Source: a virus
DNA length: 30,035 nt
Strand: one strand, 5' to 3'
Virus record (IMG/VR): IMGVR_UViG_3300005613_000298
Span: 1-30,035 of that record
Part shown: one piece after another, positions 17,813 to 29,028 of the stretch
Position numbering within the stretch: position 1 is the first letter of the stretch
How the letters are laid out: each line of letters starts with the position of its first letter
Notes under the pieces: generated by a model
Database searches by the model: none
The model's input: the letters and a program-made list of their open reading frames with translations, nothing else
Told to the model about the DNA's origin: nothing
Translations under genes and position numbers: made by a program

Positions 17813-18029
17813 TTTTTTCTCCTTTTTTATATTTAATTCTAATTATGTATTTTCTTATGATGGCAAAAATCGTTAATACGACTACTTGACACAAAGAAAT
17901 AATCAAAGCGTTATAAATGCCTAAAGATAAAACCACATAAGCAATGAACCAACTTAAAAAGAAATTGATTGGTAAGCCTATAAAAGTATCTAATGTTGCT
18001 TCTTCTAATGCTTTTTTATCAATCTTCAT
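17793..18029 (-). CDS. Two-span membrane protein, DUF7220-like
   Basis: 78 aa from the ATG at 18029; the codon before it is TTG. Charged start KIDKKALEEATLDTFIGLPI, two hydrophobic spans (about residues 15-38, FFLSWFIAYVVLSLGI, and 41-60, ALIISLCQVVVLTIFAII) and a very basic end (RKYIIRIKYKKGEKN). A-T-L-[DN]-x-x-x-G followed by two spans and a basic tail is the DUF7220 pattern. Inner-membrane location is likely; function unknown. It overlaps the prim-pol gene by 11 bases. Confidence 0.68.
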   Translation of the reverse strand: MKIDKKALEEATLDTFIGLPINFFLSWFIAYVVLSLGIYNALIISLCQVVVLTIFAIIRKYIIRIKYKKGEKNVSEKS

Positions 18030-20139
18030 CAAAGTAACTTCTTTCTGTGGCTATGAAAGAAAGTTTTGGTCTGCCACGTCCTCTTTGTTTGCGTTCTTGA
18101 ATATCGCCTGAATTTTGCAGACGTTCCAAAATTTCATTGAGTTGACGTTTAGGAAATGACCTGAAGACTGAGTGACGGTCTAAGTCACGCTTAGATACAC
18201 CTTTCTCTCCTTGCTCCCTAATGAAGCTCAAAACTTCCATCATACTTTTCTCTCCACGTGAACTTGCTACACGTTCACGACACATTTCAACTAATACGGT
18301 ATCATAATAGTTGACGTAGTTACAGCACCACTCAACTGTGGGTAAGTCAATAATCTTTCTTTCCACATCTTGAGCTAAGGTGCATATCAAAGCCAAACGC
18401 ATGGCTTTTTCTCTAGTTCGGGAATATAAAACTTCCAAACCAGTGTTCTCTATGTCCGATTGTTTTTTTACCAGAGTTCTTTCAAAATCTTCTAAATGCT
18501 CTAAGGCTGCAGCATCAAACTGTAATGTAGTCAATTCTGGTGGTCTTGTTTGAGCGTTGTGATTCATTGACTTCCAATCTGGATATTGATGATAACCACG
18601 CAAATCTTGAGCCCAACTTAATATAGTGTGATGTGGGTCTACCGATGGTTTTAATTTTGATGGTACTCTTGCTTGTGTTGATTCAGCCACAATAAATCTA
18701 TTCAAGAAACCATCCTGTACTTGATTGTTGGAAATGGCATCGTAAAAGTTCTTTGGCACTGTCATGCCCATTAAAGTAATTCCGGGATAGTAAATGTTTC
18801 TATCTTCATCGCCCCATTCTTTTGACCTATTAAATTCTGAATATTGGTCAGGACGTAATACGCCATCGCAACGTCCCCAAGACTCCATTAAGATACGCAT
18901 AGCTGACTGAGCCACGTGTTCATCGTTGTCAACTATTTGCTCCATTCTTTTACCAAATTCATCTATTATCACAATATGAGAGGGTTTTCTTGCTAGAGTT
19001 GAGAACACAGCACCAGAGGATGTATAACCAGAACCAGCCAGCATATCTTCTAAGCCGGCTTCGTGCAGAATCTTTTCAATAACCTTTTTACTGTTTTCCT
19101 TACCTTGCCCAGATTTGGCAACATTTAAGAAGAACAGAGAACTAAAGTTATCTATATCTGTCTTATATAAACGAGAACAAAGTACAGAACCTAAGGCCAA
19201 CGCTATTTGTACTGAAAGATATGGTTGTGGCGTTCTTGCCACTTGTTCTGCATATTCCCATACCTTTGATAGTATCCCCGGTGGCTCTAAAATACCATCT
19301 GGTTGGGTAAAATTTTCCTGAGGTTTTTTCCACACCGGAGCTAGATTTTCTGTGAGTTTTCTGTTATCTATCGTGAAGAGAGAGTCAATGATAGTCCGAA
19401 TTTCTTCGTCGTCTAGCGGGGGGACGTAAGTATCATTGACTTGTTTTAATATCCATAGAACCTCTTCTGGTGAGTGTCCCTTAGCTATTAAAGAACCTGC
19501 TACCTGCGTTAGTCTCATATTCCTTGAACCTTCAACAACAGGGGCAAATATTTCTGCATTGCTCTTTAAATCAAAAGGTTTAGCTTTGACGGCATCTTCT
19601 GAAGAGCCTCTAATCTTTTCTACAATGTCTTTTTCTAATATTGGTAAGTCAGATAAGTCGTCAAAGTCAAAGAAGGGGTCAACGTCTGGGGTGTAAACAA
19701 AGCCCGACTCATGTACGGCATAAGGTGCTAGAGCATAAGTAGCAACAATGTCTATTCTTTTCTCTAAAGTAGTTTTACTTTTGTCTGAAACGTAATGTCT
19801 AAAGTTGTGGGTATTTCTGAAGTAATAGTGTTTACCTTTACGGGTAGCTACCTTTACTGGCGTATGTATGTGTTTTTCACACCAATCAACTGCTTCTTGT
19901 GTATCAGCGTCAACGACACAGAAGTTGGTACAGATTAAAGCAGGGTTGACATTCCTTCTTTGTCGAAACCAATTTTCAATCTGTTGTTCTGTTGGTTGTT
20001 GTTTTTGGTATGCTTTCCAAGACCCTATTAAGGGTTGTTTTGTGTCTCGGCTAACTGGTATAACAGACCAACCGTTTTCCCAATATGCCATGGCCTTTTC
20101 TAAAGGCGTACTTTTTTCGTTAATATCATTAGCAAACAT
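18019..20139 (-). CDS. Primase-polymerase / helicase (prim-pol + DUF3987-like ATPase)
   Basis: 706 aa. Residues ~15-150 are a prim-pol domain: V-V-D77-A-D79 for metals, K-G-K-H104-Y-Y and R-I-D130-I-V-A-x-Y-A-L-A-P. A primase C-terminal helical region follows (~200-257, EGSRNMRLTQVAGSLIAKG). The ATPase part has a Walker A-like AKSGQGKE at 341-348 and Walker B IVIIDEF at 389-395; the usual Ser/Thr after GK is Glu here. The last ~80 residues look like a winged helix with a basic GRGRPK end. It should prime and unwind at the fork. AAGGAG lies 7 bases before the ATG; first gene of the minus operon. Confidence 0.85.
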   Translation of the reverse strand: MFANDINEKSTPLEKAMAYWENGWSVIPVSRDTKQPLIGSWKAYQKQQPTEQQIENWFRQRRNVNPALICTNFCVVDADTQEAVDWCEKHIHTPVKVATRKGKHYYFRNTHNFRHYVSDKSKTTLEKRIDIVATYALAPYAVHESGFVYTPDVDPFFDFDDLSDLPILEKDIVEKIRGSSEDAVKAKPFDLKSNAEIFAPVVEGSRNMRLTQVAGSLIAKGHSPEEVLWILKQVNDTYVPPLDDEEIRTIIDSLFTIDNRKLTENLAPVWKKPQENFTQPDGILEPPGILSKVWEYAEQVARTPQPYLSVQIALALGSVLCSRLYKTDIDNFSSLFFLNVAKSGQGKENSKKVIEKILHEAGLEDMLAGSGYTSSGAVFSTLARKPSHIVIIDEFGKRMEQIVDNDEHVAQSAMRILMESWGRCDGVLRPDQYSEFNRSKEWGDEDRNIYYPGITLMGMTVPKNFYDAISNNQVQDGFLNRFIVAESTQARVPSKLKPSVDPHHTILSWAQDLRGYHQYPDWKSMNHNAQTRPPELTTLQFDAAALEHLEDFERTLVKKQSDIENTGLEVLYSRTREKAMRLALICTLAQDVERKIIDLPTVEWCCNYVNYYDTVLVEMCRERVASSRGEKSMMEVLSFIREQGEKGVSKRDLDRHSVFRSFPKRQLNEILERLQNSGDIQERKQRGRGRPKLSFIATERSYFDED

Positions 20140-26683: not shown

Positions 26684-26943
26684 ATCTTACGCCAAACTCT
26701 TATCTTCTTAGGCTCTCCTACCAAAGTTCTGGTGATGTAACGCCTATTAAGTAAATCCCCATCTCTATCCCAATTGTAAATATTTGAGATTTGGTAACGG
26801 GTTGTTGTAACTTTCTTCTCGCCTTCAACAACAAAACTATCGCCCACTTCCATTTGTGCTAAAGTTTCTCTCACCTCAGCAACAAATTCTGGCAACTCTC
26901 TTTTGCCTGTAATGGGGACATCTTTCTCTATTCTTAATCCCAT
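26680..26943 (-). CDS. DUF7303-like small protein (paralogue B)
   Basis: 87 aa. GLRIEKDVPITGKRELPEF, then LAQMEVGDSFVVEGE, a basic YQISNIYNWDRDGDLLNRRY segment and the end KKIRVWRKI. Shares its three-part layout with the 97-aa protein at 25470-25763. It begins by TAATG overlap with the preceding gene and ends by ATGA overlap with the following one. Function unknown. Confidence 0.65.
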   Translation of the reverse strand: MGLRIEKDVPITGKRELPEFVAEVRETLAQMEVGDSFVVEGEKKVTTTRYQISNIYNWDRDGDLLNRRYITRTLVGEPKKIRVWRKI

Positions 26944-27128
26944 TAGTTTTCCTGTAATACATCTTTGACAAACTTTAATGTTTGTTTGTCGTTTAAGTTA
27001 TGAGTTTGCATCAACATACGCAATGACACTCGGACATCTTGCTCGGCCAATTCTTTTGCTAATTGGTCGGTATTGTTTGTGTCTAATAAAGCATTAGACA
27101 ACGCTAGGTTATAAGTTTCCTTATCCAT
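26943..27128 (-). CDS. 61-aa hypothetical protein, first gene of the small-gene operon
   Basis: Starts at ATG 27128 (DKETYNLALSNALLDTNNTD), where CAAGGAG stands 8 bases upstream; the longer frame to 27182 would read through the promoter region. Mostly helical: QLAKELAEQDVRVSLRMLMQ and LNDKQTLKFVKDVLQEN. No family known. It leads a string of seven small genes that runs to the terminator at 25361. Confidence 0.65.
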   Translation of the reverse strand: MDKETYNLALSNALLDTNNTDQLAKELAEQDVRVSLRMLMQTHNLNDKQTLKFVKDVLQEN

Positions 27129-27379
27129 ATTTATAACTCCTTGGGTATAACTATATATGCATATCATAATGAAGTCAAACATTGCAAAACAAAGTAAACA
27201 AGTAAAAGATTTGCAAACTTATCACACAATTGACACCTTATCGTCACATAACTATGTAATAATATAAGCAGGATATAATCCTCGCACCCGAAAGGCGTAA
27301 AGCGTTACACAAAGTGGTACACACACCAAGACTGATGGCGAAGTGGTTGCATAAGGTCAAAGAAAATTAAGGAGATGCA
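27129..27379. promoter_or_regulatory. Divergent control region with palindrome, TTGACA and TATAAT
   Basis: 251 bases without a gene between the minus small-gene operon and the plus zincin gene. Visible items: a perfect 10-bp palindrome ATATGCATAT at 27155-27164; a consensus TTGACA at 27230-27235; a consensus TATAAT at 27274-27279 inside a small inverted repeat (AGGAT/ATCCT, 27270-27282). If transcription starts near 27286, the zincin message has a ~95-base G- and A-rich leader with short hairpins, e.g. GTAA/TTAC at 27297-27308. TTGACA and TATAAT are too far apart (38 bases) to form one promoter. Confidence 0.5.
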
Positions 27380-27994
27380 ATGAACATTGTAAAAAATAAC
27401 ACACACTTCAATTCGCAAGAATTAAAATCTCTGTTTTGCGTGATACATAATCACATTGCAAAACATCATAAACTAGGAAAACTCAAGGGTTGGAATATTC
27501 TTAATGTTTTTCTAGCAAACAAAGTGAAAGGTAGATTACATTCTGGTTGTGCTTATGTCGGCTACTCAAATATGCTGTATGGCTTGAAAAAAGAAGGCTG
27601 GAATATGTATTTATCAATAAATCGTAAAGAAAGCATTGATGAAATTATTCAGTTGTTTGGCCATGAGCTTTATCACAGCTACGGCTTTAACCATAAAGAC
27701 TACCCTGATGCGAAGGTACTCTTTGTCGGTTGGGAAGTTGATAGGATTAAAGCTAAGTTTGGTAAAGAGCTCACAGTTAAACCTGAGCCTAAGAAAAGAC
27801 TAAAACCTGTAAATACTATTTGGAAACAGATTGATGATTTTCATGCTTCAACAACAAGGTATGAAATCGTGAAGTCACCTGTTGATGATTGGTATATCTA
27901 TGATATTGATGAGGACAATATTATAGATTATTGCACCTATCCAAAAGAAGCATTGGAATATGCAAAATGGTTAGAATCAGAAAGTAAATCATAA
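27380..27994 (+). CDS. Small zincin-type metalloprotease
   Basis: 204 aa. H95-E96-L-Y-H99-S-Y-G102-F-N-H105 is a full HExxHxxGxxH zinc site, as in metzincins; here the protein is much smaller than secreted metzincins and has no signal peptide, so it is likely cytoplasmic. The preceding NRKESIDEIIQLFG helix supplies the motif. The C-terminal ~60 residues (RYEIVKSPVDDWYIYDIDED ... CTYPKEALEYAKWLE) form a separate acidic beta/helix domain. Substrate unknown: a host protein or a virion precursor. AAGGAG site. It is alone between a control region and a strong terminator. Confidence 0.7.
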   Translation: MNIVKNNTHFNSQELKSLFCVIHNHIAKHHKLGKLKGWNILNVFLANKVKGRLHSGCAYVGYSNMLYGLKKEGWNMYLSINRKESIDEIIQLFGHELYHSYGFNHKDYPDAKVLFVGWEVDRIKAKFGKELTVKPEPKKRLKPVNTIWKQIDDFHASTTRYEIVKSPVDDWYIYDIDEDNIIDYCTYPKEALEYAKWLESESKS

Positions 27995-28000
27995 CCACAA

Positions 28001-28027
28001 GAGGGGGCTTCGTGCCCCCTTTTTTTT
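28001..28027 (+). terminator. Strong intrinsic terminator
   Basis: AGGGGGC (28002-28008), loop TTCGT, GCCCCCT (28014-28020), then a run of T to 28027. The hairpin begins seven bases after the zincin stop. Full stem of 7 bp with five G-C pairs in a row. Confidence 0.92.
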
Positions 28028-28101
28028 GACTTTTGTCACAGACTTTTGTCATGGGGAAAACCACTGTACATGGGCTTTTGGCAAGATTTAGGCTTTTGTC
28101 A
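28028..28101 (+). repeat. Four 11-bp GRCTTTTGKCA iterons
   Basis: Copies at 28028-28038 and 28041-28051 (GACTTTTGTCA), 28073-28083 (GGCTTTTGGCA) and 28091-28101 (GGCTTTTGTCA), all in the same direction. The first, with the T before it, is also a perfect inverted repeat TGAC-TTTT-GTCA. They lie between a terminator and the small terminase transcription unit, so they may be terminase-recognition (pac/cos) sites, replication iterons or repressor operators. Confidence 0.7.
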
Positions 28102-28123
28102 CACTTTCTTAATTTCTATAAAA

Positions 28124-28132
28124 TGTTATACT
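28124..28132 (+). promoter_or_regulatory. Extended -10 candidate (TGTTATACT)
   Basis: TGn followed by TATACT, the same hexamer as the sites at 8121 and 20170; no convincing -35. It lies 23 bases beyond the last iteron. The transcript would begin near 28139 and contain a possible long-range 6-bp pair CAGACT (28156-28161) with AGTCTG (28216-28221). Confidence 0.4.
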
Positions 28133-28250
28133 AACCAAATAAGAAGCAACTAGAGCAGACTTTAAGATTGGTCAGCTCACATAAAAACACCCTAAAAGAG
28201 AAGTAAAGGTGACATAGTCTGTAACATTAATTTATTTTTAGTCAAAAATA

Positions 28251-28259
28251 TGATAAAAT
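28251..28259 (+). promoter_or_regulatory. Extended -10 candidate (TGATAAAAT) for the structured RNA
   Basis: TGA plus TAAAAT (five of six consensus bases). Expected +1 is 28265-28267, coinciding with the first base of the closing stem of the RNA candidate at 28265. Confidence 0.45.
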
Positions 28260-28264
28260 CTGCC

Positions 28265-28356
28265 GTGAACTTAAGTTGCTTTGGCAACAGATTCAATCTA
28301 ACGATTGACTCAAGTTGCCTCTAGTTCACTCCCCCCGTAAGGGGGAATCATCTTTT
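28265..28356 (+). ncRNA. Candidate structured small RNA
   Basis: A 7-bp closing stem GTGAACT (28265-28271) / AGTTCAC (28323-28329) holds an inner stem GGCAAC (28283-28288) / GTTGCC (28314-28319) and a 6-bp hairpin TCAATC (28293-28298) / GATTGA (28303-28308). A second GTTGC (28275-28279) could instead pair with GCAAC (28284-28288), so two folds exclude each other. A G-C hairpin CCCCC-GTAA-GGGGG (28332-28345) with a T-rich stretch (AATCATCTTTT) follows, as a terminator would. No protein-coding frame is convincing here. No RNA family recognised; tRNA is ruled out by length and lack of a T-loop. Confidence 0.5.
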
Positions 28357-28371
28357 ATCACCCAAGGGTGA

Positions 28372-28400
28372 TTGCGAAAGGGGAGAAGTTTATCTATAAT
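28372..28400 (+). promoter_or_regulatory. Sigma70-like promoter placing ATG at +1 (leaderless)
   Basis: TTGCGA (28372-28377), 17-base spacer, TATAAT (28395-28400). ATG 28407 starts six bases after the -10, at the expected +1, and has no ribosome site. A hairpin ATCACC-CAAG-GGTGAT (28357-28372) borders the -35. Confidence 0.6.
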
Positions 28401-28406
28401 CATTTC

Positions 28407-28589
28407 ATGCCAAGAAAACACCTTAGTAGAGCCTCAGAAGTATATTGGGCTCAAGAAGCTGTTAAGAATAGAGAAAAATATCCTACTATTGCTGAAGCAG
28501 TAGATATGTTAGAATCAGTGTTCGGTCAAGTAACTGTGATGAGAATTAAACATGGCAAGAGAAAAAGTCCTAAGTCCCAAACAAGTTAA
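28407..28589 (+). CDS. 60-aa basic protein upstream of small terminase
   Basis: Start at ATG 28407 (PRKHLSRASEVYWAQEAVKN) rather than the GTG at 28368, because a consensus promoter would begin the message at 28407. Helical, basic ends (RIKHGKRKSPKSQTS). The middle EKYPTIAEAVDMLESVFGQV may be a small helix-turn-helix-like unit; not assigned. Overlaps the small terminase gene by 38 bases in another frame, so it is probably co-expressed and may assist DNA recognition. Confidence 0.6.
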   Translation: MPRKHLSRASEVYWAQEAVKNREKYPTIAEAVDMLESVFGQVTVMRIKHGKRKSPKSQTS

Positions 28590-29028
28590 GTTTATCGATT
28601 TTTATATGCAAGGCTTCACGCAAAGTGAAAGTGCGTTTCGTGCTGGGTTAGGCACATCTAAGAATTCAGCTAAGGTGTATGCCAATCAGTTGATGAATAA
28701 ACCAGAATACATTCATGTCCAAGATGAGATTAAAAGACGACAGATGGAAGCATTGGAAAATGCTGGGGTCTCTTTGGAAACTCATATCAAAAGTTTAAAG
28801 AGTATTAGGGATAGAGCCTTGTCGGATAAAAACTATTCGTCTGCTGTTAAGAGTGAAGAATTAATCGGTAGGGTTAGCAACTTGTATCAGACTCAGACTA
28901 AGACCACAATTGAACACATACATTCATTAGACCTTGAATCCACTAAGGCTAAGATACTTGAATTGCAAAAGAAGTTGTCGCCTTATTTAGAAGGTGAGGT
29001 TGTCGAAGCTGACATCAATCCTCAGTAA
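28552..29028 (+). CDS. terS: Terminase small subunit (Terminase_2-like)
   Basis: 158 aa. N-terminal helix-turn-helix region LSPKQVKFIDFYMQGFTQSE, then SAFRAGLGTSKNSAKVYANQ and LMNKPEYIHVQDEIKRRQME, the classic Terminase_2 order in which the phage DNA site is bound. A central helical oligomerisation part and a C-terminal acidic end (LEGEVVEADINPQ) for contact with the large subunit complete it. The large subunit is not next to it: the following genes are on the opposite strand, so it must lie outside the window. Confidence 0.85.
   Translation: MAREKVLSPKQVKFIDFYMQGFTQSESAFRAGLGTSKNSAKVYANQLMNKPEYIHVQDEIKRRQMEALENAGVSLETHIKSLKSIRDRALSDKNYSSAVKSEELIGRVSNLYQTQTKTTIEHIHSLDLESTKAKILELQKKLSPYLEGEVVEADINPQ

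Follow-up and report, generated by a model that had tools for sequence, protein, structure and literature searches.

A folded element and a repeat array in the non-coding gap upstream of the small terminase gene of a marine phage

The window analysed here is the whole stretch of a 30,035-base virus record, a contig classed as linear, from a marine phage related to the HTVC023P and CRP-901 groups. Near its end lies a gap (28025-28406) flanked by a strong intrinsic terminator belonging to the upstream gene and by an ORF of 60 amino acids that overlaps terS, the gene of the small terminase subunit. Judging by its sequence, the terminator would cut the gap off from upstream transcription. The features of this region are as follows.

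27999-28024, plus strand: intrinsic terminator of the upstream gene, GGGGGC-TTCGT-GCCCCC followed by eight T
28031-28038, 28044-28051 and 28094-28101, plus strand: exact copies of the array motif TTTTGTCA
28076-28083, plus strand: near copy of the array motif, TTTTGGCA
28096-28124, plus strand: promoter-like site TTGTCA-17-TAAAAT, a consensus match only, with its -35 box inside the last array copy
28233-28250, plus strand: perfect 7-bp hairpin with loop AGTC, lying just ahead of the 28249-28259 promoter region and reaching into its first bases
28251-28259, plus strand: extended -10 element TGATAAAAT
28265-28271/28323-28329, plus strand: outer stem (7 bp) of a rod-like fold
28275-28288, plus strand: alternative hairpin GTTGC-TTTG-GCAAC (stem 28275-28279/28284-28288, loop UUUG)
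28283-28288/28314-28319, plus strand: middle stem (6 bp) of the rod-like fold
28293-28298/28303-28308, plus strand: inner stem (6 bp) of the rod-like fold, loop UAAC
28332-28336/28341-28345, plus strand: G-C hairpin CCCCC-GTAA-GGGGG with a GNRA-type loop and a poor U-tract
28357-28372, plus strand: hairpin ATCACC-CAAG-GGTGAT
28407-28589, plus strand: ORF of 60 amino acids overlapping terS, matching no family
28552-29028, plus strand: terS, small terminase subunit (Pfam Terminase_2 PF03592, PHROG 51)

Upstream of the terminator, at 27380-27994, is a gene resembling HExxH metalloproteases through a weak Pfam match below the cut-off. In the closest relative, the sister contig IMGVR_UViG_3300005512_000081, it is replaced by an unrelated ORF of 83 amino acids (L001 2194-2445), while the preceding flank (26879-27376) is identical, and this position is possibly a site of cargo exchange. 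Short ORFs overlapping or abutting the start of terS are also present in several relatives, although their sequences differ. The 60-residue ORF itself, in the part before the terS overlap, has three substitutions relative to the sister contig, all of them synonymous.

The three nested stems of 7, 6 and 6 bp proposed in a sequence-only reading of this DNA are present, both by direct reading and in the minimum free energy (MFE) fold. The duplication of AAGTTGC (28273-28279 and 28312-28318) was likewise confirmed, as was the mutually exclusive stem it had been said to create, since pairing within the alternative hairpin bars the middle stem of the rod. A loose scan gave the G-C hairpin, which may also be counted as 28330-28346 with 6 bp and a 5-nt loop, a terminator-like score. 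Its proposed role as a terminator held only in part: the hairpin is there, but its tail AATCATCTTTT is interrupted, with AATC preceding TTTT, unlike the tail of the genuine terminator at 27999-28024. The hairpins at 28233-28250 and 28357-28372 are additional to those first described.

In comparison with dinucleotide shuffles the element is more stable than expected. The 90-nt window starting at 28261 has an MFE of -34.1 kcal/mol (z = -4.3 to -5.05), with none of 200 shuffles as stable, and in a scan of both strands of the whole 30 kb it ranks first of 1,998 windows by folding z-score; nowhere among the 1,998 are energies lower than for this stretch and its complement. Five perfect hairpins with 4-nt loops, out of 49 in the whole window, cluster within 140 nt (28233-28372), a number reached in none of 200 shuffles of the whole window, in which the largest cluster was four. 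The minus strand is as stably folded as the plus strand, so energy alone cannot separate an RNA structure from palindromes in DNA. Read as the plus strand, which is the strand of terS, the loops UUUG, UAAC and GUAA fall into recognised classes of RNA tetraloop. The complementary loops CAAA, GTTA and TTAC, as inferred from the sequence, lie outside those classes. UNAC loops, here UAAC, have been described as GNRA-like (PMC5311481).

The extended -10 was found on the plus strand where the sequence-only reading had placed it, and a start about 7 nt beyond it would fall at 28265-28267, the foot of the closing stem as had been suggested. However, the second promoter-like site at 28096-28124, which would transcribe the entire interval, makes initiation at 28265 one option among others. 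Both sites are consensus matches only, and the small ORF and terS follow them in the same direction. Were the extended -10 the sole promoter in use, the RNA would not include the hairpin at 28233-28250. The extended -10 pattern TGNTANAAT occurs seven times on the plus strand of the window and not at all on its minus strand. A TTGTCA array copy also fits as a -35 box, not only in the window but in the relatives L056 and L076, again by consensus match only and with spacings of 16-17 bp. The leaders of these two, the nearest comparable relatives with such a site, show no unusual folding (z of 0.1 for L056 and -0.9 for L076), so leader structure is not general among those relatives.

The element was found in one other contig only, the sister, which is 100% identical over the element and matches across 28216-28414 apart from one inserted nucleotide in the loop of hairpin 28357-28372. 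A coding role was rejected, as this indel shifts the frame. The identity itself was also rejected as a sign of constraint, because the two contigs are 96.2% identical over 15.9 kb aligned and share 28 stretches of 120 nt or more without a single difference, and with the single other copy identical no covariation can show.

The sequence-only reading knew no family of this shape, and Rfam agrees: its 4227 models, including phage packaging RNA (pRNA), gave no gathering match and the best sub-threshold matches within the element at E up to 10 were at chance level (E 6.5 and 8.3). A tRNA and tmRNA search found none, and none of 50,697 phage records matched at the nucleotide level. When relatives were sought through terS, the 60-residue ORF, the primase and a protein of 619 amino acids, only the sister contig was recovered. 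A search with the large terminase TerL gave 80 loci, namely the sister contig and 79 relatives, and the element is absent in all 79. The covariance-model search proposed in the sequence-only reading was run with model R1 over about 1.36 Mb of related loci, made up of the TerL relatives plus representatives of the terS relatives, and scored the known copies only. DNA stem patterns found only the sister in the viral collection, with 20 further matches to looser patterns having no credible covariance-model match. Among genome contigs, two Thiomicrorhabdus matches to the stem patterns were set aside as resembling, by reading of their sequence, the ends of IS30-type insertion sequences, and one Bifidobacterium match looks like chance. 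In effect, neither compensatory base changes in relatives nor conservation beyond this lineage was found in the collections searched, the sole other copy being identical, and these are the outcomes that had been named in advance as speaking against the RNA. Finding no relatives, however, does not argue against a structure as strongly as direct evidence would.

TerL in the sister contig shares about 59-62% identity with its counterparts in HTVC023P, HTVC027P, 023Pt_psg01 and DSL-LC04, and the HTVC023P-related marine phages (MN698239, MN698241) are thus similar in this protein, as well as in their TerS family. Several of them also have a long non-coding gap before terS, as here, but without the sequence and structure of the element. 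For the window primase, the similarity is to Pseudoalteromonas phages C7 and H40/1 and to CRP-901/902. Ancestry is mixed: the primase (18022-20139) is nearest to those of Pseudoalteromonas phage C7 and Roseobacter phages CRP-901/902, while the sister-contig TerL (L004 928-2415) has its closest relatives in phage 023Pt_psg01 and in the HTVC023P type of Pelagibacter phage. Inspection by eye of the region upstream of terS in CRP-902 did not reveal a comparable element or array.

Outside the folded element and beside terS lies the TTTTGTCA array, a new observation which is better supported than the folded element. In 80 loci with related terS genes (L092-L171, mutually related and hence not 80 independent events), 615 TTTTGTCA/TGACAAAA sites were counted in 36.6 kb upstream of terS (16.8 per kb), as against 12 in 299 kb elsewhere in the same loci (0.04 per kb). 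The sites occur in both orientations, and their positions and spacing align across the group. The window terS is only about 20% identical to the terS of this group, yet three exact array copies and one near copy are kept, whereas 1,000 shuffles of the 550-bp region never gave three. The window and L076 have in common an extended stretch, TTGTCAGACTTTTGTCAT...GGGAAACC. From its sequence and position the array looks like a candidate region where a protein would bind, be it in terminase packaging, in autoregulation or in control of the operon, and across a large group of marine phages it is a candidate packaging or operator site. The array is also found upstream of terS at L059 407-704 and L074 40-168, and in both of these relatives the ATG of the small ORF before terS falls within a TGACAAAA copy. 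HTVC023P has the same architecture with a different motif, five copies of CTAGGAAA in one orientation, spread over about 90 bp upstream of terS (L088 11680-11771).

The simplest account of the element is that it is a lineage-specific structured 5′ leader of a two-gene mRNA carrying the 60-residue ORF and terS, a reading which is proposed tentatively and at a little under an even chance. What is established is that the stretch folds, that such a fold is rare, that it sits in this gene context and that it is non-coding. In favour of a leader are the top-ranking fold with z of about -5, the five hairpins, the loop classes of the plus strand, the extended -10 just upstream, the insulation from the upstream gene by its terminator, terS downstream on the same strand, and the indel against the sister contig, which breaks any reading frame and falls in a loop. 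Against it are the identity of the sole relative, the equal folding of the minus strand and the unremarkable leaders of L076 and L056. Transcription would start at about 28131 and/or at 28265-28267, and the UUUG-loop hairpin would form first in the nascent RNA. Once the second AAGUUGC copy is made, a longer nested rod would take over, with its 7-bp stem closing at or near the 5′ end. The rod and the two hairpins behind it may then shield the 5′ end of the message from 5′-dependent decay, and may govern when, or how much, small terminase is made. Structured 5′ leaders of the ompA 5′ UTR type stabilise mRNA. Like these, the element has a hairpin lying at the predicted first nucleotide or close to it, and more hairpins ahead of the coding region; it differs in sequence and gene, and is known from two genomes only.

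The main rival is a DNA-level site, either cos/pac-like for packaging or an operator, in which TerS or a regulator would bind the inverted and direct repeats and the RNA fold is a by-product of the palindromes. This is rather unlikely but a serious contender. Sites of the cos/pac kind adjoin terS, the R-sites of lambda cosB being an example, and the gap is likewise non-coding DNA directly upstream of terS, with repeat arrays in the window and its relatives. The relatives have their DNA-motif array in the corresponding interval, of which the window has a short form, the copies of AAGTTGC/GCAAC at 28273, 28284 and 28312 do not all point the same way, and both strands fold alike. The different array at the same place in HTVC023P is expected if the sites track the TerS protein. 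However, the folded element contains no exact array motif, the loops of its plus strand match RNA tetraloop classes, and the G-C palindrome is positioned between the array and terS. A functionless origin in fortuitous or passively drifting palindromes would agree with an element known from just two nearly identical contigs, whose identity is no higher there than in many other stretches, but it is the least probable explanation of all, as the element is first in the window and beats all shuffles.

The sequence-only reading, which is partly supported as a whole, had offered a small phage RNA gene or a switch. For a free-standing RNA of about 28265-28356 ending in the G-C hairpin, the extended -10 lies immediately ahead of the first stem and the scan scored the hairpin as terminator-like; with AATC breaking the U-tract, and no homologue from Rfam or the covariance model, it is improbable. 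Packaging RNA of the phi29 type is comparable in its phage and packaging context and compact predicted fold, but the Rfam search did not match it and this phage has a normal TerS/TerL pair. An attenuator or switch responding to a ligand or protein through the duplicated AAGTTGC appears more doubtful still. Its stems are mutually exclusive, and in prefix folding the UUUG hairpin appears first and is displaced once the second AAGTTGC copy is complete, an order which is a model result and no proof of a switch. In addition, CTCCCC (28329-28334) is complementary to GGGGAG at 28380-28385. Nevertheless, the nested fold, at -22.5 kcal/mol, is 4.7 kcal/mol more stable than the three-way alternative that contains the UUUG hairpin (-17.8 kcal/mol), the terminator is weak, there is no conserved core, and GGGGAG lies 21 nt from the ATG, beyond normal Shine-Dalgarno distance. 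Regulated switching is possibly compatible with the structured leader, which does not require it. Most ambitious is a terminase-locus phage RNA that would switch between UUUG hairpin and rod, serve in packaging or terminase timing and act in joint RNA and DNA control of packaging with the TTTTGTCA array in abundant marine phages; this is very improbable. It would overstate the evidence to present the element as a new family of RNAs, as a switch or as a gene for a small RNA.

The gap before terS in this phage thus holds a lineage-specific folded element, whose favoured reading is a structured leader on the terS mRNA, together with a family-wide repeat array, and both are candidates for terminase control or for a packaging site.
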